Assembly (NCBI GenBank): GCA_016000195.1
Contig: JAECRO010000033.1
Span: forward strand, 1-32,487
Origin: Burkholderiales bacterium
Lineage (GTDB): Bacteria; Pseudomonadota; Gammaproteobacteria; Burkholderiales; Burkholderiaceae_C
Direction: 5' to 3'
DNA: 32,487 nt
In this document: positions 50-32,198 of the stretch, piece by piece
Layout: every line of letters starts with the position of its first letter
How positions within the stretch are numbered: the first letter of the stretch is position 1
Notes under the pieces: generated by a model
Told to the model about the DNA's origin: nothing
The model's input: only the letters and a program-made list of their open reading frames with translations
Databases searched by the model: none
Position numbers and translations under genes: made by a program

Positions 50-2344
50 AAGTTCATGCGCTTGGCACAGTCAAGGCTGGCGGCGCTGGGTACGGGCGTG
101 CTGGGCTACATCACCAGCAATTCGTATCTAGAAAGCCCCACGTTTCGCGGCGTGCGCCAGAGCTTGCTGCACAGCTATCCGCAGCTGCGCATAGTGGACT
201 TGCACGGCAACGCCAACAAAGGCGAAATTTCGGGAGGTGACGAAAACGTGTTTGAAATTAAGGAGGGCGTCGCCATTGCCATTGGCAGCGTGAATCCTGG
301 CATGGCTATTCGCATCGAGCACGCCGACTTGTCAGGGCCACGGCACATTAAGTGCGATCGGTTGCTCTCCGAAGGTCTGGGAATACTGAGCCCTTTCGCG
401 CCTATGGGTGAAAAGCTCCAATTGGCACGCAGCGATGCCTTCGGAATTGGGGAATACGAATTGGGATGGCCGCTACCCACCATCTCGCCACTGAATTCGG
501 CAGGGATTATTACGGCGCGGGATGCACTCACAATCCAGTTCAGTGAAAAGCAGGTCTGGGACACCGTGCGCGACTTTGCGAAACGTGAGGTTGAGGATGT
601 GCGCGAAGCCTACTCACTTGGTGACGATTCAAGGGATTGGCAAGTTGAGTTAGCTCAAAAGGATGTGAATGGAACGGGGCCTAATAAGCGTCATCTTCAA
701 CCTCTTTTGTACCGCCCGTTTGACATCCGCCAAACTTATTACACGGGTCAGACTCGCGGTTTTTTGTGCATGCCTCGACCAGAGGTAATGCGACACATGC
801 TGGAGGGCAGAAATCTTGGACTCATCAGCTGTCGCCAAATGTCGCAAGCTAATGAGGAGTGGGCTTTGGTTGGTGTGAGTCGATTGCCCATTGAGGGTTG
901 TGCTATTTCCAACAAAACTAAGGAAATCAATTACCTTTTTCCGCTTTGGCGGCATCAAGAGGTTGGACAGGCCGAAAACCTCTCCACCAGTTTCCTCGCC
1001 GCCATGCAATCCGCCCTTAGGCTAACCCCCGCCGACTACCGCCCCGAAGACCCCACGGCCCCGCTGCACGCCGAGAAGATATTCCATTACGTCTACGCCG
1101 TGCTGCACAGTCCGGCCTACCGCCAGCGCTACGCCGCCTTTTTGCGCACCGACTTCCCGCGCATTCCGATCCCCGGCTCGCGCGCCGTGTTCGATGCACT
1201 GGCCCAACTGGGCGGCCAACTCGTGCAATGGCATTTGCTGGAGCATCCGGATGCTATAAAAATAGTAGCTGGTAGCGAATATCCAGAAAGCGCTACAGCC
1301 TTTTTTGGCACTGATTTAAGCTTGCAGAAGGTGGCCGAGACGGGCAAAACCCTGGCGGAGCTGTCGGGCGATGTCGGCAAGGTGTTCATCAACGCCACCA
1401 GCGGCTTTGCCAACGTGCGTCTGGCGACGTGGCAGCACACCATTGGCGGCTACCAGGTGCTGCACAAGTGGCTGGACGACCGGCGCAAGGCCGGCCGCAG
1501 CCTGAGCCAGGACGACATCACCCATTGGCTGCGTGTTTATGCGGCGCTCGAAGCCACGCAAGCGCTGATGCAGCAGGTGGACGAGGCGATTGACGCCCAC
1601 GGCGGCTGGCCCGGCGCCTTCAGCCAGAACCATCCGCCGCCCGATGCCGCCACGCTGGCCGTTGAGCAGGCGGCGCAAAAAGAGCAACTCAAGGCGCACA
1701 AGAAAGCCGCTATTAAAAAAGTAGCTAGAGACGCAGGTACAGGCTGGACTGAGGGCCTGTTTGATTCAGATTCCGACCTGGACGAGATGGCCACAGCAGC
1801 AGGAGCGCCCCCGCGCCCAAAATCTGAGGCCGCCCCTGCCAAGGCAGCGGGCGGCAAAACTTCTTCAGCTACGCCTCGGGCAGAAGACCTCACCGACGAT
1901 CAACTGATGTGTGCGTTGCGCGCCGTGCTGGCGGAGTCTGGCGCGCTGGCACCAAACGACCTGATCCGCCAGACGGCCCGCAGGCTGGGTTTTGCCCGCA
2001 CCGCTGCGCCGCTTCGGGCGGTGCTGGAAAAGGCTATTGGGCGGGCGGTGCGACGCGGCATTGCGGCGCAAGCCGACGGCCTGCTGAGCCTGGAAGTCAA
2101 GTCCATCGAAGGCTATGACCGGGATTTTCTCAAGCAGCATTTGCTGGGCGTGGTGGGCCGGGCATGGCGCGGCACGGCAGAGGTGCCGGTCCGCTTTGCA
2201 CGGGCGCTGGGTTTTGCGCGCACCGGGCCAAAAATTGAGGAAACGGTCTGGAAGCTCATGCGCGCGCTGGTGCGTGCCGGACAGGTGGAGATTCAGGGGC
2301 GGGCTGCCAGTGCTCGCTACCGCAAAGCCAGGACGGTGCGATGA
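47..2344 (+). CDS. Type ISP restriction-modification enzyme, C-terminal part
   Basis: This is the C-terminal part of a single-chain type ISP restriction-modification protein, in which helicase/nuclease, N6-adenine methyltransferase and target-recognition parts are fused. The start of this frame reads VKFMRLAQ, then GVLGYITSNSYLESPTFRG and VDLHGN, the end of the methyltransferase core in this family. PLLYRPFDIRQTYY, KIFHYVYAVLHSPAYR and GGYQVLHKWLDDR are typical of the C-terminal specificity domain. After about residue 560 comes a low-complexity linker and then two similar winged-helix-like units, both containing GFART, resembling the C-terminal DUF3320-like region of some defence helicases. 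The GTG at 47 is only the first codon after an apparent frameshift; the N-terminal domains should lie left of the window. Two dispersed repeat copies (cores 1253 and 1709) are translated within it. The stop overlaps the next gene as ATGA. Confidence 0.8.
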   Translation: MKFMRLAQSRLAALGTGVLGYITSNSYLESPTFRGVRQSLLHSYPQLRIVDLHGNANKGEISGGDENVFEIKEGVAIAIGSVNPGMAIRIEHADLSGPRHIKCDRLLSEGLGILSPFAPMGEKLQLARSDAFGIGEYELGWPLPTISPLNSAGIITARDALTIQFSEKQVWDTVRDFAKREVEDVREAYSLGDDSRDWQVELAQKDVNGTGPNKRHLQPLLYRPFDIRQTYYTGQTRGFLCMPRPEVMRHMLEGRNLGLISCRQMSQANEEWALVGVSRLPIEGCAISNKTKEINYLFPLWRHQEVGQAENLSTSFLAAMQSALRLTPADYRPEDPTAPLHAEKIFHYVYAVLHSPAYRQRYAAFLRTDFPRIPIPGSRAVFDALAQLGGQLVQWHLLEHPDAIKIVAGSEYPESATAFFGTDLSLQKVAETGKTLAELSGDVGKVFINATSGFANVRLATWQHTIGGYQVLHKWLDDRRKAGRSLSQDDITHWLRVYAALEATQALMQQVDEAIDAHGGWPGAFSQNHPPPDAATLAVEQAAQKEQLKAHKKAAIKKVARDAGTGWTEGLFDSDSDLDEMATAAGAPPRPKSEAAPAKAAGGKTSSATPRAEDLTDDQLMCALRAVLAESGALAPNDLIRQTARRLGFARTAAPLRAVLEKAIGRAVRRGIAAQADGLLSLEVKSIEGYDRDFLKQHLLGVVGRAWRGTAEVPVRFARALGFARTGPKIEETVWKLMRALVRAGQVEIQGRAASARYRKARTVR
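1253..1321. repeat. Dispersed repeat copy R1 (in coding sequence)
   Basis: The core GCTA-N9-TAGC is at 1253-1269, followed by an AGCGCTACAGCC-like 3' part. It is translated in the type ISP protein as AIKIVAGSEYPESATAFFG, between two segments that resemble the family. Confidence 0.75.
1709..1770. repeat. Dispersed repeat copy R2 (in coding sequence)
   Basis: The core GCTA-N9-TAGC is at 1709-1725, again in the type ISP gene. It is translated as AIKKVARDAGTGWTEG in the linker before the C-terminal winged-helix repeats. The downstream GAGGGCCTGTTTGATT matches the 3' part of the family loosely. Confidence 0.65.
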
Positions 2345-2689
2345 GTTCTGTCAATTATTTCGTTGACGAAGCGGGCGACACCACTTTGTTTGGCCGCCAT
2401 GGCAAAGTCATGGTGGGCACCGAGATGGTGTCGCGCTTTTTCATGGTGGCGCGGCTGGAGGTGCCGGACGTTGAAGCACTGGCGGCCGATATTGCCGCGT
2501 TGCGGGCGGAATTGCTGAGTGATCCGCTGCTGAACTCGGTGCCTTTCATGCAGGTGGCCGCTGGCAAGACCGCGCTGTTTTTTTCATGCCAAGGATGACG
2601 TGCCCAAGACCAAAGGCAAACCAGCGCATGCCGGGGTGGAATTCAATGAAAAACACCCGCTGAGCCTGAAGAGCCGAGCGGGTGTTTGA
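2341..2689 (+). pseudogene. DUF3800 protein, frameshifted and truncated
   Basis: The N-terminus reads YFVDEAGDTTLFGRHGK, the DExGD motif of DUF3800 (RNase H-like fold) proteins, which often accompany helicase or restriction genes. The ATG overlaps the stop of the type ISP gene (ATGA), so the pair was translationally coupled. The frame stops at 2596-2598 after ALFFSCQG. Dropping one T from the T7 run at 2578-2584 gives ALFFHAKDDVP, the expected family sequence, so there is a homopolymer frameshift. The restored frame then loses similarity within a few residues and ends at 2687-2689 inside a terminator hairpin. Family members are usually well over 200 residues, so the 3' part is deleted too. 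Function is probably lost. Confidence 0.7.
2651..2687 (-). terminator. Rho-independent terminator, minus strand
   Basis: An 11-bp perfect stem pairs AAACACCCGCT (2651-2661) with AGCGGGTGTTT (2677-2687) around a 15-nt loop. Read on the minus strand the stem is followed by a run of five T (A5 at 2649-2653 on plus), as expected for termination after the D-threonine-aldolase-like gene. On the plus strand the T tract is weak. Confidence 0.7.
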
Positions 2690-2809
2690 GATAAGCATCG
2701 AGAAATATAGGGTGAACCCAATCACCACACGACTTGAAGCCGACTTTTGTCTCTCGAAGCCCTTGATTGTACCCAATGGGGAAGTTTTTGGCGCTGCGCA
2801 AATGTTTTT
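2690..2809. other. Intergenic, no gene recognised
   Basis: This 120-bp stretch lies between the terminator and the stop codon of the aldolase-like gene. It is less GC-rich than its surroundings. I see no tRNA, att-like repeat or recognisable protein fragment. It probably includes the junction left when the DUF3800 gene lost its 3' end. Confidence 0.4.
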
Positions 2810-4015
2810 TCAAGTCATCGCGCCGCGCGCATCGACGCGGATGAGGCGCTCGACCACGCCGCCCCGCAGGCCGCCGCTCACGCCGATCATCACGTCGTGC
2901 AGGTTCACTGTCGGGTCGCAGTGGCCGGGAATCAGCCACAGGAGCTGGCCGAGTCCGGGCAGGCGGGTGCTGTCGGCCGCTGGCCGCAGGATGCCGTGCT
3001 CGTCGCCGCCGTTGAAGTAGTCCAGTCCGCTTTTGCTGTCAAAGGCATGCACCTTGGGCAGGCCCGAATCGATGGCGTGGCTTTTGTGGCCGGCGTCGCA
3101 CACCGAATGGCTGTCGTGGGTGCTGATGACCTGTGTCTTGACGAACAGGGCATGCTCGAATTGCGGCTGCGCCGGGTCGCGCTCGTTCTGGGCATAGTCC
3201 ACGTCCATGAACATGAAGGAGCCGGCCTGCAGCTCGCCGTAAATGCCGCTGGCGGCTTCCAGCGCGAAGCTGCCCGTTCCCGCGCCCGTCACCAGCTTGG
3301 CCGCGATGCCTTGCGCCTTGAGCAGCTGGCAGGTCATTTCCACGGCCTTCATGGCGCTGGCGGAGGCCATGCGCCGCTCGACGGCGCTGCGCAAGTGCTG
3401 GGCCTTGCCGTGGTAGGCCTGCAGCCCGGCAAAGCGCAGCGCCGGATGCTTGCGGATTTCCAGCGCCAGCGTGACGGCGGCCTCGCCGGGCGCCACGCCG
3501 CAGCGCCCCTGGCCGACATCGATCTCGACAAACACGTCAATCACCGTTGCCGTGCTGGCGGCGCTGGCCGTGCCGCTGCGGGCGCTGGTGCGGGCCTCGG
3601 TCATGGCCAGCGCCAGCCGCTTCACGCCTTCCAGGCTGTCCACCGCAAGGGCGATCTGGCCGCCGTGGGACGCCACCGCCTGGGTCAGGGCCGCCACGCG
3701 CGCCAGCTTGGCCGGGGCAATCACCTGGTTGCTGATGTACACGTTGTAAACGCCGCCGGCCACCATGATTTCGGCCTCGGCGGTTTTTTGCACGCACACC
3801 CCGACGGCGCCGGCCTTGATCTGCATTTTGGCGAGCACGACACTTTTGTGCAGCTTGGCATGCGGGCGCCAGCGGATCTGATGCTTTTTGGTGAATTCAG
3901 CCATTCGGACCAGGTTGCGTTTCATGGCATCGAGGTCAATCACCAGGGCCGGGGTGTCGATGTCGTGGACAGGTTTGCCGATCAGTTCGGACAGGCGCGC
4001 GGGCAAATTATTCAT
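2810..4015 (-). CDS. D-threonine aldolase-like PLP enzyme (DSD1 family)
   Basis: This is a 401-residue fold-type III, metal-activated PLP enzyme of the alanine-racemase-like N-terminal group, which cleaves D-beta-hydroxy amino acids such as D-threonine or D-3-hydroxyaspartate. DIDTPALVIDLDAMKRN opens the barrel; RPHAKLHK contains the probable PLP lysine K54. The C-terminal domain has THDSHSVCDAG, GDEHG and PGHCDPTVNLHD. The H365-x-D367 pattern is that of D-threonine aldolases, whereas D-serine dehydratases of the same family use HxC. Aldolase activity is therefore more likely, but the substrate is inferred. Length is normal. It is the last gene of the minus-strand run, 26 bp after the histidine phosphatase, and is followed by the terminator at 2651-2687. 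Confidence 0.85.
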   Translation of the reverse strand: MNNLPARLSELIGKPVHDIDTPALVIDLDAMKRNLVRMAEFTKKHQIRWRPHAKLHKSVVLAKMQIKAGAVGVCVQKTAEAEIMVAGGVYNVYISNQVIAPAKLARVAALTQAVASHGGQIALAVDSLEGVKRLALAMTEARTSARSGTASAASTATVIDVFVEIDVGQGRCGVAPGEAAVTLALEIRKHPALRFAGLQAYHGKAQHLRSAVERRMASASAMKAVEMTCQLLKAQGIAAKLVTGAGTGSFALEAASGIYGELQAGSFMFMDVDYAQNERDPAQPQFEHALFVKTQVISTHDSHSVCDAGHKSHAIDSGLPKVHAFDSKSGLDYFNGGDEHGILRPAADSTRLPGLGQLLWLIPGHCDPTVNLHDVMIGVSGGLRGGVVERLIRVDARGAMT

Positions 4016-4041
4016 CAGGAATTTTGGAACAGGTGAAAGGG

Positions 4042-4716: not shown

Positions 4717-4766
4717 GAAAAGGCAGCGCGAAGGGCGGTGAAGGTTGACAGGGAGGCCTGGCCGGG

Positions 4767-5384
4767 TTAATGGGGAATCTGGACGGTGATCCGGCGCGGT
4801 CCCGGAGGCGGCTGCGGGAAGCCCTGCAAGGCCGCGTCCAGCATGGCGGACAACACGGCGAGCGTCTCTTTTTGAACGCCGTCGTTCAGGGCTCGGGTTT
4901 CAAAGACGACCTGGCTGGTCGTCAGGTCACGTACCAGCAGTGTCAATTCACGCTGGTAATAGGGGTCTGAAAACCGCATTGGAAACGACAGTCCGAACGC
5001 CGCGCCCTGGTTGCTGCCAGCCATAAAAACGCCGGGCGTGGCAAAGCCGAAACCATCGTAGCCGGGGCCGTCATAAGGCGGGCGTTCAATCACCAGGGTG
5101 GTCACGCGCACCTGCACGCTGTAGCGCGGCGCGGCCGGGTTCAGTTCCATGCCGATCTTGGCCAGCGCGGTGCGCGCCAGCCCTTCAAGCGTGTCCTGCC
5201 GGGCGCCGACGATCTGCTGCGAGGGCAGGCGCTCGAAGCGGTAAGCCGTGCCTGGCGCCGGAGGCGCTGCGCTCCAGTTGTAAAACGCGGTGACATCGCT
5301 TTCAACCACGCGCAGACCGGCGCAGCCGGCCATGAAAAATCCCATGACTGCTACTGAAACAACAGCTGCAAGCACACGTTTCAT
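4767..5384 (-). CDS. DUF4136 domain lipoprotein
   Basis: This is a predicted envelope lipoprotein of 205 residues and unknown function. The N-terminus MKRVLAAVVSVAVMGFFMAG-C is a type II signal peptide with the lipobox cysteine at C21. The rest resembles DUF4136: VESDVTAFYNWS, TYRFERLPS-like text, then LEGLARTALAKIGMEL and a conserved C-terminal half ending in basic and proline-rich sequence. An in-frame upstream ATG at 5492 would add 36 residues encoded by the 91-bp palindromic element, so I chose 5384, which starts the signal peptide and has a GGAG 11 nt upstream. The leader therefore carries a large multi-hairpin structure that could affect its expression. Confidence 0.8.
   Translation of the reverse strand: MKRVLAAVVSVAVMGFFMAGCAGLRVVESDVTAFYNWSAAPPAPGTAYRFERLPSQQIVGARQDTLEGLARTALAKIGMELNPAAPRYSVQVRVTTLVIERPPYDGPGYDGFGFATPGVFMAGSNQGAAFGLSFPMRFSDPYYQRELTLLVRDLTTSQVVFETRALNDGVQKETLAVLSAMLDAALQGFPQPPPGPRRITVQIPH
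5350..5376. repeat. Possible degenerate repeat copy R12
   Basis: GCTA-N9-CAGC at 5350-5366 is one base off the 17-bp core shared by the dispersed repeat. It lies in the signal-peptide codons of the DUF4136 lipoprotein. Only the core matches, so chance similarity is possible. Confidence 0.35.
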
Positions 5385-5399
5385 CAAAAACAAACTCCG

Positions 5400-5490
5400 G
5401 TTTGAAACCTCCCCTTTCAGGGGGATAGAACTCATTTGGAAGAGGGGGAACCTCTTCCAAATTCGCCCCGAAAGGGGCGTGGATTGAAAC
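5400..5490. repeat. 91-bp palindromic three-hairpin element
   Basis: Two related 28-nt arms (5400-5427 and 5463-5490) lie in inverted orientation. Each has a C4-TTTC-G4-type hairpin and each has GTTTGAAAC or GATTGAAAC at its outer end. Between them is a 12-bp perfect stem ATTTGGAAGAGG/CCTCTTCCAAAT (5434-5445, 5451-5462) with a 5-nt loop. The right arm, ending GGGGCGTGGATTGAAAC, looks like a CRISPR repeat of the GTGGATTGAAAC class, but there is no array. The element occupies the leader of the DUF4136 lipoprotein gene. Confidence 0.75.
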
Positions 5491-5528
5491 ATAAGGCCTC
5501 CTGAGTTGTTTGATGCGGACGCAACGAT

Positions 5529-6473: not shown

Positions 6474-6477
6474 ATTT

Positions 6478-8234: not shown

Positions 8235-8259
8235 AATTTTCCTGGTAGCCGGTAAATCC

Positions 8260-9943: not shown

Positions 9944-9953
9944 CCTGCACGCC

Positions 9954-10162: not shown

Positions 10163-11143
10163 ATGAATGCCCAAGCCACGCCGCCCGAACTTCGCCTGCC
10201 GGACGGGGCGGCGCCCGTGGCCTGCGTCGATATTGGCGGGACCAAGGTGGCCGTCAACCTGGTGGATGCGCGCGGCAGCCATGGCCGGCGGGTCGAGCCG
10301 ACGGCGAAGCAGGGCGCGCCGGATGCGCTGGCGCGGCAGGTGCTGCGCATGATTGGCGCCAGCGCCCAGGCCGCGCGGATCGACGTGCGCGACATCGCGG
10401 CGGTCGGGGTGGCGTCCTGCGGCCCGTTTGTGCTGAATGCGGGGCTGGTCGAGCTGGCATCGCCCAATATTTGCGGCGGCCTGGCCGGCAGCGGGCGCGG
10501 CCTGCCCAACGACTGGACCTCGGCCTTGCTGGAAGCGCCGCTGCGCCAGGCTTTTGCCCGGGTGCGGGTGGAAAACGACGGCATTGCCGCGCTGCAGGCC
10601 GAACGCCGCTGGGGCGCGCTGCAAGGCATGGAGCACTGCGCCTACGTGACGTGGAGCACCGGCGTCGGCGTCGGCCTGTGCGTCGATGGCCGGGTGCTCA
10701 GGGGCAAGAACGGCAACGCCGGCCATGCCGGCCACATGTTCGTCAGCGACAACTTCGATGCGCTGTGCGGCTGCGGCAACATCGGCGATGTCGAGGCGCT
10801 GGTGGCGGGCAATGCGCTGCCGCGACGGTTTTCGGCCTGGCCTGATGCTGCTAGTATTTTGATAGCTGCCCGTGCAGGCGACATAAGCGCGGAAGCCATT
10901 ATTGATGAGATATGCCGGGTCATGGGCCGGGCGCTGTACAACCTGGTCGTGACGCTCGACCTGCAGCGCATCAGCCTGGGCGGCAGCGTCTTCTGGCACC
11001 ACCGCGACTACCTGCTGCCGCGCCTGCAGGCCCACATCACCGGCAAGCTGCCCGCGCTGACCGGCGGCTGCGCGCTGGTGCCCGCCGGCCTGGGCGATGG
11101 CGTCGGCGACTATGCGGCGCTGGCGCTGGCGCTGGTGGCCTGA
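10163..11143 (+). CDS. ROK family sugar kinase
   Basis: This 326-residue protein belongs to the ROK family of glucokinases, fructokinases and amino-sugar kinases. VDIGGTKVAVN (from D23) is the phosphate-binding motif and VENDG with D139 carries the catalytic base. GNAGHAGHM provides H189/H192. The ROK zinc motif normally ends C-x-C-G-x-x-G-C; here it is C203-G-C205-G-N-I-G-D210, so the third cysteine is Asp and zinc binding may be altered. The sugar is unknown. A dispersed repeat copy (core 10850-10866) is translated as ASILIAARAGDISAEAIID. The downstream neighbour is the convergent otsA. Confidence 0.85.
   Translation: MNAQATPPELRLPDGAAPVACVDIGGTKVAVNLVDARGSHGRRVEPTAKQGAPDALARQVLRMIGASAQAARIDVRDIAAVGVASCGPFVLNAGLVELASPNICGGLAGSGRGLPNDWTSALLEAPLRQAFARVRVENDGIAALQAERRWGALQGMEHCAYVTWSTGVGVGLCVDGRVLRGKNGNAGHAGHMFVSDNFDALCGCGNIGDVEALVAGNALPRRFSAWPDAASILIAARAGDISAEAIIDEICRVMGRALYNLVVTLDLQRISLGGSVFWHHRDYLLPRLQAHITGKLPALTGGCALVPAGLGDGVGDYAALALALVA
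10850..10915. repeat. Dispersed repeat copy R3 (in coding sequence)
   Basis: The core GCTA-N9-TAGC is at 10850-10866, followed by GTGCAGGC and AAGCGC as in other copies. It lies in frame in the ROK kinase gene. Confidence 0.75.
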
Positions 11144-17616: not shown

Positions 17617-18255
17617 ATGGACAAATTAAGCACACGAAAAGCCCTGGTGCAATCGCGCCTCGACATGCCCGACCGACTTGCCCGGGCCGATCTGCTGCAG
17701 CGGGTCATGCGCATCTGGCTGGTCGGCTCGCCCCATGAGGTGATTGGCGCGTACTGGCCGATCAAGGGCGAATTCGATCCGCTGCCGGCGCTCTACCGCT
17801 GGCAGGAGGACGCCGTGCTGAGCCCGGAATTTCAGGAAAATACGCCTCTTGCGCAGGCAGTGCAAGCACAGTTAGCTACAGAAAGCATAGCAGGCCGGTC
17901 GCCGCGCAAGATTGGCCTGCCGGTGGTCAACAAGCTGCACAAGACGCTGACGTTTCATGCCTGGTATCCGGGCTGCCCGATGGAAGACGACGCCTACGGC
18001 ATTCCCAAGCCGAAAGACACCGAGATCATCGTGCCCACGCTGCTGTTCGTGCCCTGCGTCGGCTACGGGCCGGGTGGCTACCGGCTGGGTTACGGCGGCG
18101 GTTTTTACGACCGCACGCTGGCCACGCTGTCGCCGCGTCCGTTCACCGTCGGCCTGGGCTTCAGCCACGGCTGGCTGCCCGACATGGAGCCCGAGCCGCA
18201 CGACGTTCCGCTTGATGTGCTGCTCAATGACAAGGGCGTGGCCTGGCCGGTGTGA
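17617..18255 (+). CDS. 5-formyltetrahydrofolate cyclo-ligase
   Basis: This enzyme converts 5-formyl-THF to 5,10-methenyl-THF with ATP, recycling an inhibitory folate form. The N-terminus MDKLSTRKALVQSRL is the usual basic helix, YWPIKGEFD binds substrate, and GPGGYRLGYGGGFYDRTLA (residues 151-169) is the family signature. The 212 residues exceed the usual length of about 190, and the excess lies around residues 76-97, which are encoded by a dispersed repeat copy. The start is 9 bp from the divergent transglycosylase start and lacks a clear ribosome site. Folate links it to folB in this window, but they are not in one operon. Confidence 0.92.
   Translation: MDKLSTRKALVQSRLDMPDRLARADLLQRVMRIWLVGSPHEVIGAYWPIKGEFDPLPALYRWQEDAVLSPEFQENTPLAQAVQAQLATESIAGRSPRKIGLPVVNKLHKTLTFHAWYPGCPMEDDAYGIPKPKDTEIIVPTLLFVPCVGYGPGGYRLGYGGGFYDRTLATLSPRPFTVGLGFSHGWLPDMEPEPHDVPLDVLLNDKGVAWPV
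17846..17893. repeat. Dispersed repeat copy R4 (in coding sequence)
   Basis: The core GCTA-N9-TAGC is at 17875-17891, with TGCGCAGG and GTGCAAGC to its left, as in a copy read on the minus strand. It is translated in the cyclo-ligase as LAQAVQAQLATESIAG, extending a loop. Confidence 0.6.
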
Positions 18256-19310: not shown

Positions 19311-20732
19311 ATGGCAATGCATCCCCTCGACGTCGTCATCATGGCCGCCGGCAAAGGCACGCGGATGAAAAGCAGCCTGCCCAAGGTCTTGCACCGGCTG
19401 GGCGGCCGGGCCTTGCTGGTGCATGTGATGGACTGCGCTGGTCAGTTGTCGGCCCGCCAGGCGGTGGTGATTAGCGGCCATGGTGCTACAGAAGTAGAAG
19501 CAGCCTGCGCAGGCAGGACGGGCGCTGCAGCCGATTTAAGCCTGAAATTCGTGCGCCAGGAGCCGCAGCTGGGAACCGGCCATGCGGTGCAGCAGGCGCT
19601 GCCCGCGCTGCCTGACGACGGCATCACGCTGGTGCTGTCGGGCGACGTGCCGCTGACGCAGGCCGCCACGCTGCAGGCGCTGCTGGCCGAGTGCGACGGC
19701 CAGCGGCTGGCGCTGCTGACCCTCCGCATGGACGACCCGACCGGCTACGGCCGCATCGTTCGCGCTGGTGCGCAGGCCAGCGCCCAGGTGCGCGCCATCG
19801 TCGAGCACAAGGACGCCAGCGAGGCCGAGCGCGCCATTCATGAAATCTACAGCGGCATCATGGCCGTGCCGACGCGGCTGCTGCGCGGCTGGCTGGCCCG
19901 GCTGGACAATAAAAACGCGCAAAACGAGTATTACCTGACCGACATCGTGAAGTTCGCGGTGCAAGATGGCGTGGCCGTGGTGGCGCACCAGATCAGCGAC
20001 GCCGCGCAGGTGGCCGGCGTCAACAGCCCGGTGCAGCTGGCCGAGCTGGAGCGCGTCTACCAGCAGCGCCTGGCCACTGCGCTGATGGAGCAGGGCGTGC
20101 GCCTGGCCGACCCGGCGCGGCTGGACGTGCGCGGCCTGCTGACCTGCGGGCAGGATGTCGAGATTGACGTGAACTGCGTGTTTGAAGGGCGTGTGAGCCT
20201 GGGGCAGGGCGTGTGCGTGGGCGCCAACTGCGTGATTGCCAATGCCGTGATTGCGGCGGGCGCGGTGATTCATCCGTTCACCCACATCGACGGCGAAAAG
20301 CTCGGCGTGCAGGTCGGCGAGGGCGCGCTGGTCGGCCCGTTCGCCCGCCTGCGGCCCGGCGCCCATCTGGGCGCCGAGGTGCATATCGGCAACTTTGTCG
20401 AGGTCAAGAATTCCACCCTGGCCAAAGGCGCCAAGGCCAATCACCTGGCCTACCTGGGCGACGCCACGGTGGGCGAGCGCGTCAACTACGGCGCCGGCAG
20501 CATCACCGCCAACTACGACGGCGCCAGCAAGCACCGCACGGTGATCGAGGCCGATGTGCATGTCGGCAGCAACTGCGTGCTGGTCGCGCCGGTGACGATT
20601 GGCACGGGCGCCACGGTGGGCGGCGGCTCGACCATCACCGCAGACGTTCCGGCCGGAGCCTTGAGCGTGGCGCGGGGCCGGCAGGTGAACATTGCCAACT
20701 GGGCGCGGCCGGTTAAGCCAACCGGGGTTTGA
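19311..20732 (+). CDS. glmU: Bifunctional GlmU (GlcNAc-1-P uridyltransferase / GlcN-1-P acetyltransferase)
   Basis: GlmU makes UDP-GlcNAc for peptidoglycan and LPS: it acetylates glucosamine 1-phosphate and then couples it to UTP. The N-terminal half has MAAGKGTRMKSSLPKVLH (residues 11-28), QLGTGHAVQQAL and LSGDVPL; the C-terminal left-handed beta helix shows hexapeptide repeats and RPGAHLG, GNFVEVKNS, HLAYLGDA, NYGAG. AGGAAA precedes the ATG at 19311. The 473 residues slightly exceed the usual 450-460; residues 59-78 (including ATEVEAACAGRTGAAADL) are encoded by a dispersed repeat copy and replace a variable loop. Confidence 0.96.
   Translation: MAMHPLDVVIMAAGKGTRMKSSLPKVLHRLGGRALLVHVMDCAGQLSARQAVVISGHGATEVEAACAGRTGAAADLSLKFVRQEPQLGTGHAVQQALPALPDDGITLVLSGDVPLTQAATLQALLAECDGQRLALLTLRMDDPTGYGRIVRAGAQASAQVRAIVEHKDASEAERAIHEIYSGIMAVPTRLLRGWLARLDNKNAQNEYYLTDIVKFAVQDGVAVVAHQISDAAQVAGVNSPVQLAELERVYQQRLATALMEQGVRLADPARLDVRGLLTCGQDVEIDVNCVFEGRVSLGQGVCVGANCVIANAVIAAGAVIHPFTHIDGEKLGVQVGEGALVGPFARLRPGAHLGAEVHIGNFVEVKNSTLAKGAKANHLAYLGDATVGERVNYGAGSITANYDGASKHRTVIEADVHVGSNCVLVAPVTIGTGATVGGGSTITADVPAGALSVARGRQVNIANWARPVKPTGV
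19485..19551. repeat. Dispersed repeat copy R5 (in coding sequence)
   Basis: The core GCTA-N9-AAGC (one mismatch) at 19485-19501 is followed by AGCCTGCGCAGGCAGG and GGCGCTGCAGCC, a good match to the longer family pattern. It lies in frame in glmU. Confidence 0.7.
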
Positions 20733-20735
20733 GCC

Positions 20736-21011
20736 TTAAAAAGGCTTCTGGCGCAGAGAAGGTATGCGGTTGCAGCTATTTAATTGATAGCTGATGGGTT
20801 TTGCTGGCTGGCTGGCTTGCCGCGCTGCCTGCGGTTCGGATCGACCCTTTCCTCGCTGGTGACTCTGCTTTGGCGCTGGAGCGTTCGCATTTTGCGAAGG
20901 CTGGACCAGGAAATCGATCAGCGCTGCGATGCCGGCATCACGCTGGCCCAAAGGAGTGGCCACCGCCAGGCGGATGGACACCAGGTCAAACCGGGCAAGG
21001 TTGTCGCTCAC
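20736..21011 (-). pseudogene. Probable LysR-family stub with internal deletion
   Basis: A GTG-started frame begins SDNLARFDLVSIRLAVAT, resembling the extreme N-terminus of LysR regulators (the first helix before the helix-turn-helix), but then passes directly to PLGQRDAGIAALIDFLVQ, which resembles the C-terminal end of such proteins. The whole DNA-binding and effector region would be missing. The remaining 50 residues are low-complexity and include codons from repeat copy R6. It lies 19 bp downstream of the PHA-system gene on the same strand, without a ribosome site. Recognition rests on short segments and is tentative. Confidence 0.4.
20773..20810. repeat. Dispersed repeat copy R6 (in or beyond the LysR stub)
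   Basis: CAGCTAT-N7-ATAGCTG (20773-20793) is a perfect 7-bp dyad containing the GCTA-N9-TAGC core at 20775-20791. It lies between glmU and the LysR-like stub. Confidence 0.65.
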
Positions 21012-24506: not shown

Positions 24507-25631
24507 TCAAGGCCGGCTGTCTTCTGCCGCCAGCCCGGCATTTGTGGGCAGAAGGCTGCGGTTCAGCAGCGCATGCCGCTCGTCCCGGGGCAGGCCGGCC
24601 AGCCGTTTGACGGCAGCGTAGAACTGCGGCCAGTCGCGCCCCTGGCGCTCAAACAGGGCTTCAAAGCCGGGCGCCAGCTCGTCATAGGCCGCCTGCGCGC
24701 CAAAGGATGCATTGTTGGCGTGCGCCACCCACGGGTCGTAGCCCGCATAGCCGTCCCACGAAGCCTTGAGCTGGGCATAGCGCGCCCTGAAATTCTGCAT
24801 TGCTATGTTTTTGAGAGCTGCTTGTGCAGGTGGGGCGTGCGCTGGAGCCTTGTTTGGTTCATAAATGGCATTCAGTTCCTGGCGCGTGGCCAGCGTCAGC
24901 GCCCGGAACTGCTGGCGCCGGCCGTCAAAGCGCAGATAGGCTTCGAGCGCTTCATCGCGGCCCTGGCGGGGCTGCGCCGCCAGCCAGCGCTGCACGCCCA
25001 GCCGCTCGACGGCCGTTGCGAATGATTCGTTGAACACCGTGTCGCCGGGCGCATAAACCACCTGGTGCGCAAGTTCGTGAAACACCAGCCGCGCCAGTTC
25101 GCCTTCCGGGTAGCGGATGAAGGTGCTCAGCAGCGGGTCGCCGCCGGCCCAGTTCATCCAGCCCAGTGTGGAGTAGGCCGGCACGCCATGGACGCTGGTC
25201 TCCAGCCCCTGGGCGGCGAGCCGCGCGGCCTCGGCCCGGGCTTCGGGTTCGCTGAAGTAGCCCCGGTAGCCGACGCAGCCGGCCAGCGGAAAACACCAGG
25301 TCTTCAGCGTCAGCGAGAACTCGGGCGCGGCCACCACGTTCCAGACCACGGCGCTGCGCTGCAGGTCGGCATAGCGGTGGTAGCTCGGGTTGTCGGGCAG
25401 GCTGAGTTCGGTGACGGCAAAGCGGCGGATGCGCTGCGCCAGCACCAGCCGGCTTTTCAGCGGCGCCGGGGTCTGGCTGTCGCCCAGCCACTCATCCACC
25501 GGACGCGCCGCATTGAGCACCGTCAGGTGGCCGCTGACCGACTGCCAGTAGTAGCCCATGTCGGCGCAGCCGGCCAGGCTGGCGGCGGCCACGCCAGCGG
25601 CCATTGCGCGCCTGAATCGTGTCAAGGCCAT
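24507..25631 (-). CDS. Predicted aminopeptidase lipoprotein (PF10023)
   Basis: This 374-residue predicted zinc peptidase has a lipoprotein signal MALTRFRRAMAAGVAAASLA-G with lipobox cysteine C22, so it should be membrane-anchored on the periplasmic side. HELAH at residues 185-189 is the HExxH zinc motif and E202 in NESFAT the likely third ligand. YRGYFSE and AYSTLGWMNWAGGDPLLSTF are typical of PF10023. The substrate is unknown. AGGAG lies 8 nt before the ATG. Residues about 259-280 (PNKAPAHAPPAQAALKNIAM) are encoded by a repeat copy and extend the family sequence. Its stop abuts that of the convergent kinase as TGATCA. Confidence 0.88.
   Translation of the reverse strand: MALTRFRRAMAAGVAAASLAGCADMGYYWQSVSGHLTVLNAARPVDEWLGDSQTPAPLKSRLVLAQRIRRFAVTELSLPDNPSYHRYADLQRSAVVWNVVAAPEFSLTLKTWCFPLAGCVGYRGYFSEPEARAEAARLAAQGLETSVHGVPAYSTLGWMNWAGGDPLLSTFIRYPEGELARLVFHELAHQVVYAPGDTVFNESFATAVERLGVQRWLAAQPRQGRDEALEAYLRFDGRRQQFRALTLATRQELNAIYEPNKAPAHAPPAQAALKNIAMQNFRARYAQLKASWDGYAGYDPWVAHANNASFGAQAAYDELAPGFEALFERQGRDWPQFYAAVKRLAGLPRDERHALLNRSLLPTNAGLAAEDSRP
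24802..24862. repeat. Dispersed repeat copy R7 (in coding sequence)
   Basis: The core GCTA-N9-GAGC (one mismatch) at 24802-24818 is followed by TGCTTGTGCAGG and GCGCTGGAGCC, matching the longer pattern. It lies in frame in the aminopeptidase gene. Confidence 0.75.
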
Positions 25632-25645
25632 TGCGCGTGCTCCTG

Positions 25646-26625: not shown

Positions 26626-26696
26626 AAAACCGGTGTAACCCGCATGGATATTGGGTTTCAAGCATTTCGGTGCTCAGTCAACTGCTTTTTCTGGGT

Positions 26697-27533: not shown

Positions 27534-27879
27534 GGGGAAAAGGAAAATAAAAGTGACAGTGAAAAATCGCTTTAGCTTAGCCGTTTCGCGGCGCCAGGCT
27601 TGTACGGCTGAACGCCGCCCCTGCGCTGGCGCGCTCCGGCGCCGTACAGCTTAACAAGCTTGCATGGCAATTGAAAATTTTATTAAAAGTGCTGCTTGCG
27701 CAGGATTGGCAAGCGCTGATAGCTATTAAAAAAATAGCATCGAAAGGCGGGCGCCGGGCCGAACGGCAGCTGCCCTTGCCAAGCCGCCCGTGGGGCAGAT
27801 GACGCCCGGAAAAATGCCCGCCCGCCATCGCAAGGGCCGGCAAACGCAGGAAAATGCCGGCAAACGCCGTGAGTGCGGC
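27534..27879. other. Intergenic with inverted repeats and repeat copy R8
   Basis: This 346-bp stretch has no convincing gene. It contains an inverted repeat TGTACGGC (27601-27608)/GCCGTACA (27641-27648), the small palindrome AGCTTAACAAGCT (27648-27660), and repeat copy R8. The left part may hold the transglutaminase promoter. Confidence 0.5.
27675..27750. repeat. Dispersed repeat copy R8 (intergenic)
   Basis: TGCTTGCGCAGG and AAGCGCT precede a perfect core GCTA-N9-TAGC at 27722-27738. This intergenic copy shows both halves of the family pattern. Confidence 0.75.
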
Positions 27880-28131
27880 CTATCGGCCCACCACCGACCA
27901 GCCCGCTTGCTGGTTGGCCTTGTTGTTCTCGTATTCCCACGCCGTGCCGCAGCGGTCGCAGCGGTAGCTGGTGATGGTGACTGGCGCGGAACCGCGCTTT
28001 TCCTGGCGGTTGGCGCCCTGCACCAGTTCGGGATGCCCGGGCGCCTTGCGCCAGTTGCGCTGGATGCCGGCGCACGAATCGCACAGCTCCATCTTTTTCA
28101 GTTCGTTCTTTCGGTTCAGGTCTTCGGTCAT
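27880..28131 (-). CDS. Small zinc-ribbon protein of unknown function
   Basis: This 83-residue protein has two CxxC pairs, CDSC near residue 17 and CDRC near residue 60, spaced as in a zinc ribbon, with intervening basic sequence (GIQRNWRKAPGHPELVQG) and an aromatic C-terminus (GTAWEYENN). I do not recognise a named family. The start at 28131 has a weak GAAGAG site; an in-frame ATG at 28236 would add 35 low-complexity residues. It stands alone on the minus strand between repeat-bearing spacers. Confidence 0.65.
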   Translation of the reverse strand: MTEDLNRKNELKKMELCDSCAGIQRNWRKAPGHPELVQGANRQEKRGSAPVTITSYRCDRCGTAWEYENNKANQQAGWSVVGR

Positions 28132-28432
28132 GGTGTTGCTCTTCAGATGGGGCGAGGGTGCCTTGGATGTGGGGGTCGATTGTCGCTCTTCGGTCATCCG
28201 GATTGACGCGGACTTCCCGTCAGGCGCCTCCGCCACCAGGCAAGCGCAAGCAGGCGCAGCGTTGTGATCGAATCAAGCACATGGCGCTGTGCGCGCCGGG
28301 CTTCCCCGAGGCAGGAAATCCTGGGGAACGGCAGGCACTTGGCGCTATAAATTTAGTAGCTATTCATGCCCATGGTGAAAGCGGAGCAAGCGGAAATGGC
28401 TTGAAATTGCTATAAATTTCCGACTCAATCCG
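28132..28432. other. Intergenic with repeat copy R9
   Basis: No gene is recognisable. The right part holds repeat copy R9 and the inverted repeat CGGAAAT (28391-28397)/ATTTCCG (28416-28422), which may end transcription of the PLD-family gene. Confidence 0.45.
28344..28415. repeat. Dispersed repeat copy R9 (intergenic)
   Basis: A perfect core GCTA-N9-TAGC is at 28344-28360, followed by GAAAGCGGAGCAAGC. A second GCTATAAATTT lies at 28410, suggesting a partial or inverted end. Confidence 0.65.
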
Positions 28433-30112
28433 CTACAGCATTTCGTCAGGCGCCAAAGGCCCGATCAGCTTGAGCAGCAGCCTTAGCGTCATGCTGACAT
28501 CCGGTTCAGTTGTCGCGTCCTTGAGGCCGGATCCTTGCGGCGCGCGCCATACCAGTTTTCCATTGACCCGTTCCACATGGTAGGCGCCGCTCGTCAGTGC
28601 GGGCTCGATCATTCGGGTGGCTTCCAGCGCCAGAACGCGGTTTCGGATGATGATGGCCACCTCGCTATTTTGCAGTTTAGAACGCAGATCCAGGTTCATC
28701 GAACCGACTACCAGCAGACGGCCATCCACCACCACCACCTTGGCATGAAGGCTGGCGCGCGAGCTGCCTTTTGATCCTCCCGTAGAGCCTGCGCCCCAGC
28801 TAAAGCTTCTGACGGTGCTTTCCTGGTCGGCGCGCATTTCATAAATTTCAATGCCCATCGCCAGCAGCGCTTCACGATAGCGGGTATAGCCTGCGTGCGC
28901 GGCGGGTGCATCGTTGGAGGCTAGCGAGTTCGTCAGCACCCGAGCCCGCACGCCACGCCGCCGCAGCTCGGCAAACTGCCCCATCATGACTTCGCCCGGA
29001 ACAAAATAAGGCGAAACGATCAGCAAATCGGTTTTTGCCTGGGACATGAGTTGCAGCAGCCCATCCACCGCCGTTTCCTGCGCTTCTGCCACATCGTCGG
29101 CGTCAGCAGCAATCTTGGACGGCTGGTCCACCAGCAAGACAGACGGCGCCCAGGTCCAGGTCAGCAGGCTCAGGTCGGTCGAGTCGGGCAGGGCGGTGGC
29201 GTTATTGGGCGCCGGTGTCGGGTTTTTGGCTGGTATTGGCCTATCTGATCCCGCTGGGGGTGGGGCGCCTGAAGGCGCTTCGGGACTGGCGGCTGCCGGT
29301 TTCGGCTTGAGCAGTTCAATTTCCCTGGCGGTCATCAGCGACTGCACGGGATAGGCGAGTGGATTGTTCCAGTACTGGTCAAAGCTGCGCGACAGGTCGC
29401 GGGCAATGCGTCCGGCTGCCAGCACGTCAATGTCCACAAAGTTTGTGCCTTCGCTCTGGCCGAAATAGGTTTCGCCCAGGTTGCGCCCGCCTGTGATCGC
29501 GACCGCGTTGTCGGCGACAAAAATCTTGTTGTGCATGCGCCGCTGCATGCGCGCCACGTCCTTGAGGTTGCTCAGGATTCGCAACATCATGGAGCCGCGC
29601 CCGCCCGGCAGCGGGTTGAACAGGCGCAGCTCAAAATTCTTTTCAAAGGCCAGCGTCAAGACCTGCGCGTTCTTGCCCGAGGTATTGAAGTCGTCCAGCA
29701 GGATGCGGATACGCACGCCGCGCCCGGCCGCTTCGCGCAGCGCGTCAAACATGCGTTCGGTGGTGTCGTCGGCAAAAATCGCGTAATACTGGATGTCCAG
29801 CGTTTTCTGCGCCGCCTTGATCAGCGTCATGCGGCTGGTAAAGGCCAGCTCGGCATTGCCCACCAGGGCAAAGCCGGAGTCGTTGCGGGTGCCGGCCTTG
29901 TCTGCACGGGCCTGCACCAACTGGCCCAGCCGGGTTTCCATCGGGTTGGCCAGCGCCATTGAAACCGGACGATCCACGGCGCTTGGCAAGGAGGCACATC
30001 CAGTCACCCAGAAGCTCAAAAAAACCAGGCACAGCCACTGCCGGGCACGGTGACGACGATGTGTTGGCGCGGTCAGGGCGGGGCTGGGATGCAGCGCGGC
30101 AGGAGTTTGCAT
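28433..30112 (-). CDS. Phospholipase D / cardiolipin synthase-like lipoprotein
   Basis: This 559-residue protein has two PLD HKD motifs: H194-x-K196-x4-D201 in MHNKIFVADNAVAITGGRN and a second in LHAKVVVVDGRLLVVGSMN near residue 455. The paired motifs form one active site that forms or cleaves phosphodiester bonds, as in cardiolipin synthases of the ClsC type. The N-terminus after M1 has a hydrophobic segment and lipobox FWVTGC with C39, so it should be a periplasm-facing lipoprotein. Between the halves lies a Pro/Ala-rich linker (about residues 280-325). I chose ATG 30112; the open frame extends to 30244 without homology. It follows uup on the same strand. Confidence 0.88.
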   Translation of the reverse strand: MQTPAALHPSPALTAPTHRRHRARQWLCLVFLSFWVTGCASLPSAVDRPVSMALANPMETRLGQLVQARADKAGTRNDSGFALVGNAELAFTSRMTLIKAAQKTLDIQYYAIFADDTTERMFDALREAAGRGVRIRILLDDFNTSGKNAQVLTLAFEKNFELRLFNPLPGGRGSMMLRILSNLKDVARMQRRMHNKIFVADNAVAITGGRNLGETYFGQSEGTNFVDIDVLAAGRIARDLSRSFDQYWNNPLAYPVQSLMTAREIELLKPKPAAASPEAPSGAPPPAGSDRPIPAKNPTPAPNNATALPDSTDLSLLTWTWAPSVLLVDQPSKIAADADDVAEAQETAVDGLLQLMSQAKTDLLIVSPYFVPGEVMMGQFAELRRRGVRARVLTNSLASNDAPAAHAGYTRYREALLAMGIEIYEMRADQESTVRSFSWGAGSTGGSKGSSRASLHAKVVVVDGRLLVVGSMNLDLRSKLQNSEVAIIIRNRVLALEATRMIEPALTSGAYHVERVNGKLVWRAPQGSGLKDATTEPDVSMTLRLLLKLIGPLAPDEML

Positions 30113-30272
30113 GATGCTGGCTACTCTAGCGCAAGCCCTTGGTGCTCGACTCTGCCGGGCGGGCGGTTCTGGCTCTTCTTTGTGTAGGCGGCCCGCGTGA
30201 CGGCGTGCCAGCGCAGAGGTGTTGCCGCCCGCTGAACCTTTCACGGCAACAGCCCGCGGGCTGCCAACGGGC
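30113..30272. other. Intergenic between uup and PLD-family gene
   Basis: This 160-bp region contains the perfect palindrome CAGCCCGCGGGCTG (30250-30263) just after the uup stop, without a T tract. No gene is visible. Confidence 0.4.
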
Positions 30273-32198
30273 TCAGGCGGAGAGCGTTTCCCAGCGCTGC
30301 AGGGCTTCCATGAGTTCTTCCTCCAGCTTGGCGTTGCGCGCCGTCAGTTCTGCCGCCCGTTTGGCATTGCTGGTGTAGAGCGTGCCGTCGTAGAGCTCCT
30401 GCCCAATCGCTTTTTGCTGCGATTCGAGTTGCTGAATCAGCGCCGGCAAGCCATCGAGTTCACGCTGTTCCTTGTAGCTCAGCTTCTTTTTTGATAGCTG
30501 CTCGCGCTCGTCCTTATTGGGTGTCACAGCACTTTTGCTTGTATTTTTCGCACTGGAAGCGGTCGGGGTCTTGTTGCTGCCGGTAATTTGCGCCGCGCGT
30601 TTCGACTGCGTGAGCCAGTCCGTCACGCCGCCTTCGTATTCACGCCAGAAACCGGGATTGTCCGGCGTGCCTTCGTAGGCGATGGTGCTGGTCACCACGT
30701 TGTCCAGGAAGCGCCGGTCATGGCTGACCAGGAACACCGTGCCTTCGTAGTTTTGCAGCAGGTCTTCCAGCAGCTCCAGCGTGTCGATGTCCAGGTCGTT
30801 GGTCGGCTCGTCGAGCACCAGCACATTGGCGGGCCGTGCAAACAGGCGCGCCAGCAGCAGGCGGTTGCGCTCGCCGCCCGACAGCGTGCGCACCGGTGAG
30901 TTGGCGCGCGAGGGCGAGAACAAAAAGTCGGTCAGGTAGCTCTTGACGTGCTTCTTCTGGCCGTTGATCTCGACCCATTCGCTGCCCGGGCTGATGAAGT
31001 CTTCCAGCGTCGCGTCCAGGTCCAGCGCGTCGCGCATCTGGTCAAAATAGGCCACCTGCAGATTCGCTCCCAGGCGGATCTTGCCCGGCGGGCTGGTGAC
31101 GTCGGGCTGCAACTCACCCAGGATGAGCTTGAGCAAGGTGCTTTTGCCGGCGCCGTTGGGTCCCAGCAGGCCAACTTTATCGCCGCGCAGCAAGGTGGCG
31201 CTGAAATGGCTGACGATGATTTTTTCGGCCCCCGGATGGCCGAAGCTCTTGGACACGTCGGTGAGTTCAGCCACGATCTTGCCGCTCTTGTCGCCGCTGG
31301 AAACGTCCAGGTTGACCCGGCCGACCGCGTCGCGGCGGGCGGCGCGGTTGTCTCGCAATGCCTCAAGCCGGCCAATGCGGGCTGTGCTGCGCGTGCGGCG
31401 CGCTTCCACGCCTTTTCGAATCCAGACCTCTTCCTGCGCCAGCAGCTTGTCCGCCTTGGCGAAGATGACGGCTTCCTGCGCCATCTGGTCTTCCTTCTGG
31501 ATCAGGTACTGGGCAAAATTGCCGGGGTAGCTGCGCAGCTTGCCGCGATCCAGCTCGACGATGACATTCGCCACCTGATCCAGAAAGGCCCGGTCATGGG
31601 TAATGGTGATGATGCTGCCATTGAAATTGACCAGTAGTTCCTCCAGCCAGGCGATGGAGTCGAGGTCCAGGTGGTTGGTGGGTTCGTCGAGCAGCAGCAC
31701 GTCAGGCTTGGCGACCAGTGCCTGGGCCAGCGCCACGCGTTTTTTGGTGCCGCCCGACAGCGAGCCAACGATGGCGTCCTTGTCCAGGTGCAGGCGGTGC
31801 AGGGTTTCTTCAACGCGCTGCTCCCATGTCCAGCCGTCCAGCGCTTCGATTTCAGATTGCAGCGCGTCCAGGTCGGTGTGTTCGTCGGCTGCGAGGTAGA
31901 GTTCCACGACATGCTTTGTGCGCGCCAAACCTGTACTTGCAGCTATGAAAACCGTAGCGTGCGGATCAAGGCTGGGCTCCTGTGGCACATAGGCAATCCG
32001 TAGGTTCTGCTGCAACTGTAGCGTGCCATCGTCCGGTTTTTCAAGTCCAGCAAGTATCTTGAGCAAAGACGACTTGCCTGTGCCATTGCGGCCAATCAGG
32101 CCAATGCGCTGGTTGGTTTCCAGGGAAAAATCTGCATGATCCAGCAGTGCGACGTGCCCAAAAGCAAGTTGAGCGTCTAAAAGTGTAATGAGTGCCAT
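30273..32198 (-). CDS. uup: ABC-F family ATPase Uup
   Basis: This 641-residue soluble protein has two ABC domains and no membrane segment, as in ABC-F translation factors. The first has Walker A GRNGTGKS (36-43), LSGGTKKRVALAQAL and LLLDEPTNHLDLD; the second has GPNGAGKST (near 343), LSGGERNRLLLARL and LVLDEPTNDLDIDTLELLE. The last 80 residues form the coiled-coil C-terminal domain characteristic of Uup (ELDGLPALIQQLESQQKAI), which acts on branched DNA or ribosome-associated RNA. Two repeat copies are translated in it, at ATVFIAASTG near residue 82 and in the linker REQLSKKKLS. The 10 nt before ATG lack a Shine-Dalgarno sequence but follow GATAAT, so the mRNA may be nearly leaderless. Confidence 0.95.
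   Translation of the reverse strand: MALITLLDAQLAFGHVALLDHADFSLETNQRIGLIGRNGTGKSSLLKILAGLEKPDDGTLQLQQNLRIAYVPQEPSLDPHATVFIAASTGLARTKHVVELYLAADEHTDLDALQSEIEALDGWTWEQRVEETLHRLHLDKDAIVGSLSGGTKKRVALAQALVAKPDVLLLDEPTNHLDLDSIAWLEELLVNFNGSIITITHDRAFLDQVANVIVELDRGKLRSYPGNFAQYLIQKEDQMAQEAVIFAKADKLLAQEEVWIRKGVEARRTRSTARIGRLEALRDNRAARRDAVGRVNLDVSSGDKSGKIVAELTDVSKSFGHPGAEKIIVSHFSATLLRGDKVGLLGPNGAGKSTLLKLILGELQPDVTSPPGKIRLGANLQVAYFDQMRDALDLDATLEDFISPGSEWVEINGQKKHVKSYLTDFLFSPSRANSPVRTLSGGERNRLLLARLFARPANVLVLDEPTNDLDIDTLELLEDLLQNYEGTVFLVSHDRRFLDNVVTSTIAYEGTPDNPGFWREYEGGVTDWLTQSKRAAQITGSNKTPTASSAKNTSKSAVTPNKDEREQLSKKKLSYKEQRELDGLPALIQQLESQQKAIGQELYDGTLYTSNAKRAAELTARNAKLEEELMEALQRWETLSA
30482..30530. repeat. 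Dispersed repeat copy R10 (in coding sequence)
   Basis: The core GCTT-N9-TAGC (one mismatch) at 30482-30498 is followed by TGCTCGCGC and GTCACAGC. It falls in the linker before the coiled coil of uup. Confidence 0.5.
31912..31958. repeat. Dispersed repeat copy R11 (in coding sequence)
   Basis: The core GCTA-N9-TAGC at 31942-31958 with CCTGTACTTGCA to its left matches the family read on the minus strand. It lies in frame in uup, encoding ATVFIAASTG. Confidence 0.65.

Follow-up and report, generated by a model that had tools for sequence, protein, structure and literature searches.

The 32,487-nucleotide stretch that forms contig JAECRO010000033.1 of a Burkholderiales assembly (GCA_016000195.1), hereafter the window, contains twelve copies of a dispersed palindromic DNA repeat, spread over reading frames and intergenic spacers. 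The source genome probably belongs to Polaromonas, as most of the best named relatives of its 5-formyltetrahydrofolate (5-FTHF) cyclo-ligase gene carry that genus name. A preliminary description had recorded about 12 copies sharing the 17-bp core GCTA-N9-TAGC; all 12 are present, with cores at positions 1253, 1709, 5350, 10850, 19485, 24802, 28344 and 30482 on the plus strand and at 17875, 20775, 27722 and 31942 on the minus strand, and 8 of them match the core exactly. A position weight matrix (PWM) trained on a 340-kb sample of the same genome (the window plus 16 further stretches) scores every one of them above 9, and under a stricter matrix derived from an alignment of the best copies (A1) 10 of the 12 exceed 15, those at 5350 and 31942 falling below. 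The host families named at the outset were borne out by protein family matches, comprising the Type ISP C-terminal domain, ROK, 5-FTHF cyclo-ligase, GlmU, a putative aminopeptidase, and an ABC-F ATPase that among NCBIfam models fits Uup best, with a score under the model cut-off.

Taken at full length, the first PWM-detected copy (1251..1317, plus strand) lies in frame and on the same strand within a gene for a type ISP enzyme, and the second (1707..1773, plus) occupies the same gene. A weak element-like site (5348..5414, plus) with a PWM score of 18, not above 15 with the A1 matrix, coincides with the start of a DUF4136 gene. The ROK kinase gene contains a copy at 10848..10914 (plus), with no element detected at the same place in genome G159, one of several comparison genomes cited here by working label. 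The cyclo-ligase copy (17827..17893, minus) coincides with a 22-codon difference from short forms of the enzyme, and the GlmU copy (19483..19549, plus) with a gain of 7 residues over the closest solved GlmU, while a further copy (20727..20793, minus) overlaps the 3' end of glmU. The putative aminopeptidase gene, encoded on the other strand, carries a copy at 24800..24866 (plus) and has 3-4 extra residues relative to most genomes that lack the pattern. Two copies are intergenic (27674..27740, minus, and 28342..28408, plus), the latter with a G159 partner, offset by 23 bp, in a different spelling. The Uup-like gene, on the strand opposite to the first of its two copies, holds one toward its C-terminal end (30480..30546, plus) and a weak one near its N-terminal end (31894..31960, minus), a place that also scores as an element in G024 and G159.

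The dispersed repeat is thereby confirmed and is larger than first noted: the core is real, and it forms only the left part of a 67-bp ungapped pattern. When a matrix started from core copies was refined by iteration over the 340-kb sample, information extended from about column 1 to column 67, with little beyond, and the 62 best distinct copies align over 67 columns with zero gaps (alignment A1, from copies gathered with an ungapped matrix); indels are likewise absent from 105 of 106 nhmmer matches. The consensus in the source genome reads TTGCTATTNATTTAATAGCTGCTTGCGCANGCNNNGCNTGCGCAANAGGC, followed by a T-rich tail and an A-rich one. Within the element there are two local dyads, or palindromic halves, and the letters RTAG at columns 15-18, and mean copy-to-copy identity is 49-55%. 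An excess of the core across the genome, which the preliminary description had proposed as a check, is clear: over the whole genome (3.09 Mb, 84 contigs) the core matches 370 times and its reversed pattern 91 times. With the A1 matrix, 340, 400 and 400 kb of the source genome, G399 and G024 yield 66, 69 and 65 copies, and the reversed sequences none. Matrices specific to each of six genomes find 66, 70, 68, 65, 60 and 64 copies (15-19 per 100 kb), with 2 control matches in G399 and 0 elsewhere.

Presence beyond the source genome, which the preliminary description had suggested for other Comamonadaceae, is borne out by a strict pattern found in 64 of the 299 family genomes sampled, distributed over 37 of 141 genera, and in none of the reversed controls. 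These counts are lower bounds, as the strict pattern misses G159 entirely, a genome with 64 copies by matrix; because of this, the label 'pattern-negative' may be wrong for some genomes, a caveat that applies to the aminopeptidase, Y1_Tnp and ComEC comparisons given below, where such genomes may carry other dialects. In a less strict survey across the order, 9 of 260 genomes have matches, with 256 in the source genome, 212 in G148 and 5, 3 and 1 in three further family members; the remaining four genomes, outside the family, have one match each, fewer than the control there. A model search, scoring 84 places per genome, detects the element in 29 of 61 relatives, which all belong to a single genus, and has no match in 24 genomes of other families. 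Among the sampled genomes, the element is thus frequent only in part of one family.

The copies favour spacers and gene ends. Gene calls were made with a custom script based on codon usage, so contexts and frames are approximate, and spacer counts include copies that overlap gene ends, with the background restricted to spacers of at least 67 bp. Across the six genomes, 124 of 393 copies are intragenic, and spacer copies number 98 in convergent, 150 in co-directional and 21 in divergent spacers, for which the available room is 33.7, 114.4 and 72.3 kb; convergent spacers are therefore frequent hosts. The intragenic copies show that genes are open to the element in particular frames, as had been suggested from the window, since two of the six possible frames account for 96 of the 124 (61 + 35), with 50 lying with the gene strand and 74 against it (p 0.04). 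Co-directional spacer copies show no transcription orientation bias (80 with, 70 against; p 0.46), and no strand preference was found in the 400-kb stretches (A 32/38, B 33/35, C 28/37, E 30/34). Spacing is more even than random in the source genome, G399 and G286 (0.015, 0.013 and 0 of 400 simulations, respectively). The plasmid sequence scanned, 250 kb from pPNAP01 and pPNAP02 of one strain of Polaromonas naphthalenivorans (full lengths 353 and 190 kb), is nearly free of the element: the G399 matrix finds one match with a score of 16, and the matrices of the source genome, G159 and G026 find nothing there, where about 42-48 copies would be expected at the densities of G399, G024 and the source genome.

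Comparison of related genomes shows that close species have their copies at the same places and that the places turn over as distance grows. The aligned blocks of G399 and G024 cover 165 kb at about 95% identity and contain 34 G399 copies, of which G024 shares 32 and lacks one, the last being unresolved; 35 more lie outside the blocks. At about 80% identity, G159 has 64 copies in 400 kb. For 52 of them the flanks could be matched in the other sets, and 36 of the 52 have an element close to the matched position, 30 in the same orientation within 40 bp, including 17 within 2 bp. Viewed from G399, a same-orientation element is found for 24 of 44 placed copies in G159 and for 4 of 13 in G286, a member of another genus. 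Constraint within the element is also visible. For sites chosen in G399, the differences from G024 amount to 17/544 in the 17 most informative columns, 61/512 in the 16 least informative and 356/6446 in the flanks; a repeat count with sites found in other genomes, which avoids the possible bias of choosing sites in a compared genome (36 of 63 placed sites usable), gives 19/538 for conserved columns, 79/899 for loose columns and 374/6653 for flanks. The difference between conserved and loose columns (p 9e-5) is smaller than in the first count and still holds.

The most telling feature of the element is that it is spelled differently by different species at the same loci. The source genome, G399 and G024 have GCGC..TGCGCA, G159 has GCCC..TGGGCT, G026 has CGC..GGGCT and G286 has GCGCTT..AAGCGCT. 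Column 41 is mostly C and column 27 mostly G in the first three genomes, and G159 has G at column 41 (98%), C at column 27 (75%) and T at column 44 (96%). Among 30 orthologous pairs with G159, columns 41, 27 and 44 differ in 27, 24 and 28, and columns 5, 17, 18 and 19 show zero differences; the combined changes at columns 27/41 are GC to CG (19), GC to GG (5), GG to CG (3), GC to TG (2) and GC to GA (1). Of the 17 pairs whose placement agrees to within 2 bp, 14 differ at column 41 (always C to G), 13 at column 27 and 16 at column 44, and the remaining 64 columns are 72% identical. In the best-kept orthologous pairs, locus-specific letters persist a few bases from the switched columns, and the switch therefore occurred by point changes in those pairs; gene conversion or re-insertion is for the same reason an unlikely cause of the dialects. 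G026 has G at both columns 27 and 41: of its 16 pairs with G399, 14 read C in G399 and G in G026 at column 41, and 15 share a G at column 27, while all 19 of its pairs with G159 share a G at column 41. The two halves of the element may thus differ independently between species, the right half alone in G026 and both in G159, and stepwise switching would then be traceable genome-wide at the same loci, a proposal that is advanced tentatively.

The dialects follow the phylogeny of the species, as is the case for the DNA uptake sequences (DUS) of Neisseriaceae and the uptake signal sequences (USS) of Pasteurellaceae. In a survey of 81 genomes of the genus, those with at least 20 matches to either the GCGC or the GCCC/GGGC pattern have at most 2 of the other (source genome 247/0, G024 281/0, G389 454/1, G159 2/105, G378 0/104 and G386 1/78), while neither pattern matches in many genomes and small numbers of both occur in several. 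A tree of the Slt protein, a single gene with several weak nodes and with G378 left out, places the genomes with more than 100 GCGC matches in one group and G159 with G386 in another, inside which lies G393, with few copies; moderate GCGC counts (20-45) also occur outside the first group, in G382, G396, G369 and G014.

Two further observations concern these spellings. G032 and G383 adjoin the G159 group and match neither dialect, and may mark recent loss or another dialect. G148 appears to have two spellings together, GCGC..GCGC and CCC..GGGCGC after ATAGCA, which are perhaps co-existing dialects.

The two local dyads and the frequency of copies in convergent spacers would suit a structured RNA or a transcription terminator, and the exchange of both partners at columns 27 and 41 in G159, together with inner dyads that look longer by eye in some other genera, gave a hint of pairing. 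The pairing suggested by G159 is not general, because G026, with G at both positions, breaks it. Neither the local hairpins nor the long dyad shows excess covariation among the 62 copies, where mutual information is concentrated in neighbouring columns, and no Rfam match was found in the three sources searched (the window, L016 and L017). The balanced orientation of co-directional copies and the position of 74 of the 124 intragenic copies opposite the gene strand also speak against a function in the transcript, and an RNA-level explanation retains very little credence.

Whether the repeat enters genes as an insert was assessed in nine hosts chosen by eye as recognisable families. In ProA, the beta subunit of methylcrotonyl-CoA carboxylase, PurK, CoaBC and YbgI/Nif3, the residues encoded by the element align to the closest solved homolog without an inserted block, save for one single-residue gap in YbgI/Nif3. 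MoaC has 12 extra residues at the element and GlmU 7. In carriers the aminopeptidase segment is 35 residues long, compared with 29-32 residues for 13 of the 15 genomes with none or few matches to the pattern, an excess of 3-4 residues over the 31-32 of most pattern-negative genomes; in G078 and G080, which are also pattern-negative, it has about the carrier length (34 and 36). A clean gain of 22 codons is seen in one host, the cyclo-ligase. The extra peptide earlier ascribed to cyclo-ligase, GlmU and aminopeptidase thus amounts to 22 residues (against short forms), 7 and 3-4. The suggestion that went with it, of an in-frame insert resembling the Rickettsia palindromic elements (PMC3733652), with the clean insertion of 15-22 residues that would be expected, is largely refuted as a general account. 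The element has in common with those repeats an open frame inside genes, and the added cyclo-ligase codons and the frame bias would agree with such an origin, but eight of the nine hosts lack a full-length added peptide (five have no block and three gain 3-12 residues) and the in situ change of dialect is foreign to it, so that this explanation is now highly improbable.

The cyclo-ligase gene itself (window 17617-18255; loci L151-L230) exists in Comamonadaceae in two forms, of about 190 and about 212 residues. Among 20 records labelled Polaromonas, 15 have 212 residues, 2 have 216-217 and 3 have 190-194, and the length in Variovorax, Ramlibacter, Acidovorax and Limnohabitans is 188-194. The two forms also differ outside the extra segment (HRWKEDGEL versus YRWQEDAVL), suggesting two gene lineages. 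Orthologs with the same residues and no repeat, which would have told against the insertion proposal, were found in part, for this gene, as longer forms without the DNA core exist in which the peptide ATESIA is kept as VTESLA or ATQSLA.

Insert-like repeats are usually explained by transposition, and an ancient mobile element of the repetitive extragenic palindromic (REP) or miniature inverted-repeat transposable element (MITE) type, spread for example by a REP-associated Y1 enzyme and now inherited vertically and partly exapted, would account for the palindromic halves, the RTAG letters, the high information content, the liking for spacers and gene ends and the clean 66-bp difference in the cyclo-ligase. 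The element shares with REP sequences, REPINs and their RAYT transposases a palindromic form, a preference for spacers, a high copy number and persistence. Intragenic comparisons within the genus speak against it. Where the other genome has no element, 19 of 29 intragenic comparisons (not independent sites) have the same length and none is an empty site; of the 9 intragenic comparisons between genera, 4 are equal in length and the other 5, each at the cyclo-ligase site, are empty. The AIVSIAHRP segment of an ABC transporter is spelled by a copy in G026, and the orthologs in G399, G024 and G159 have the same overall length without the element; a segment of this type is general in ABC proteins. 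The spacers are less uniform, with 3 of 16 same-genus comparisons of equal length, and a lack of most of the length in 7 of the 16 that is counted in favour of mobility; none of these seven shortened spacers is within 10 bp of a clean gap, and no target duplication was established in any compared site. The copies diverge to the extent given above with almost no indels and no pairing covariation in A1, unlike REP sequences, and a switch of dialect in place is not expected from copying. Genes of the Y1_Tnp family, considered as a possible driver, were present in 23 of 26 genomes, both pattern-positive and pattern-negative, and no link to the repeat was seen that would favour this role. A mobile origin is accordingly improbable, although it keeps more weight than the Rickettsia-like insert.

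In G075, 20 Y1_Tnp matches were recorded (L231 and other places), several of equal score and several split, perhaps representing an active or decaying IS200-like family.

Taken together, these results argue that the repeat serves as a tag for recognition of double-stranded chromosomal DNA, read in trans and kept in place, to which a probability of roughly 0.8 is assigned, and not as an insert that still transposes. The different spellings at the same loci, uniform across each species, would be hard to account for without a trans-acting reader. The nature of this reader is less certain, and it is proposed, with slightly less than even odds, that the tag serves as a signal for DNA uptake and self-recognition. 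This proposal draws on the shared places, the use of both strands, the preference for gene ends, the sites without added peptide, the near-absence from the plasmid stretches scanned and the dialects, all of which match reports on DUS and USS: uptake sequences are described as arising by point mutation (PMC1939737), as having species dialects (PMC3630211) and, in Pasteurellaceae, as biased to gene termini (PMC2346458), with PMC7371117 as a further source for comparison. Like DUS and USS, the element has hundreds of chromosomal copies, many of them intragenic in preferred frames, species dialects, sites without inserted peptide and few or no copies in the plasmid stretches tested. According to this model, cells would favour tag-carrying DNA during natural transformation, and recombination of the fragments taken up would build the tags and keep them in place through molecular drive; new tags would arise by point changes at any position where protein or spacer tolerates them, and a shift in receptor specificity, followed by the tags, would produce the dialects. 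As the defining property of DUS and USS is enhanced uptake, the element is likened to an uptake tag and is not classed as a member of either. If the likeness is more than formal, it might represent a third independent origin of sequence-tagged recognition of self-DNA in bacteria, arising in Comamonadaceae with an unusually long tag of two dyads, a suggestion made with still greater reserve.

Several observations weigh against the recognition tag, its uptake function or its origin in place. Known uptake sequences span about 10-30 bp, and the element, with 67 bp and two dyads, is no short motif of that kind; its information content of 52-61 bits is about four times the 13.3-13.7 bits needed for finding sites. 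Two copies lie within the type ISP restriction gene, a gene type that is often acquired. Sharing with G159 is incomplete, at 24 of 44 copies, and the conserved columns differ weakly from the flanks (p 0.017 in one test and 0.038 in the other). Even spacing fails in three of the six samples (G024, G159 and G026). The plasmid result involves a strain whose chromosomal motif is taken from PMC5217627, the scan having covered only its plasmids. The 22-codon cyclo-ligase difference is clean, as an insertion or deletion would leave it, and the seven shortened spacers (-37 to 23 bp) also fit insertion or deletion. Origin in place is unproved because element-free sites of the same length may be decayed old copies, and such comparisons would not separate gain from loss by substitution. 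ComEC is non-discriminating, as it is present in 24 of 24 genomes, with and without matches to the strict pattern.

The type ISP gene (window 47-2344), with its two copies, may be a long-term resident, or tags may also form in acquired genes.

A rival reading is a site that organises the chromosome or is linked to replication, bound in hundreds of copies by an intracellular protein such as a nucleoid protein, a condensin loader or a segregation factor, at which selection keeps the sites and shifts them with the specificity of the protein. Such a site would be shared between species, have dialects and show no transcription bias, and it would also be nearly absent from plasmid stretches and evenly spaced in some samples. 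The paired AA/TT swaps at columns 10-11 and 54-56 among the 62 copies look like the reading of DNA shape, and the excess information would fit several proteins per site. The lack of strand preference in the 400-kb stretches does not favour it, however, and switching hundreds of sites by selection, many of them intragenic, is a heavy demand; no candidate protein turned up, with no systematic search for one made. An organising site is on balance less likely than the uptake signal and carries more weight than a mobile origin.

Part of the element has been reported before. In Polaromonas naphthalenivorans CJ2, PMC5217627 (2017) describes ATAGCT(N)22CAAAAG in 125 copies, of which 101 are intergenic, 18 lie in genes and 6 overlap, with 34 in a convergent arrangement; the same source lists GCTTAT(N)5AAGCG in Acidovorax ebreus, both motif pairs being termed 'potential novel' and given no function. 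ATAGCT and CAAAAG correspond to columns 15-20 and 43-48 of the element, with the same spacing, and the Acidovorax pair fits its inner dyad as found in G286. The motifs are given there as short pairs, with no full element, dialects, origin in place or mechanism. The Betaproteobacterial repeat element (BRE; PMC3110155), compared by description only, is likewise dispersed in Comamonadaceae and sometimes coding, but it is about 90 bp long, has at most 29 copies per genome and forms tandem arrays. No other description of the element was found in the open-licence papers searched, nor are DNA uptake sequences known for this family in them.

Should the repeat be an uptake tag, a large environmental family would possess a genetic barrier system that differs from the ones in Neisseria and Haemophilus, and the dialects would allow gene exchange among Polaromonas species to be predicted. 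Should it organise the chromosome, a nucleoid factor not yet described would act at hundreds of sites in this family. In either case, the dialects offer a handle on the reader protein, which is expected to differ between the G159 group and its neighbours. Viral contigs also contain the motif pattern, in 81 stretches (L277-L356), which may represent prophages with bacterial flanks or tagged phage genomes.

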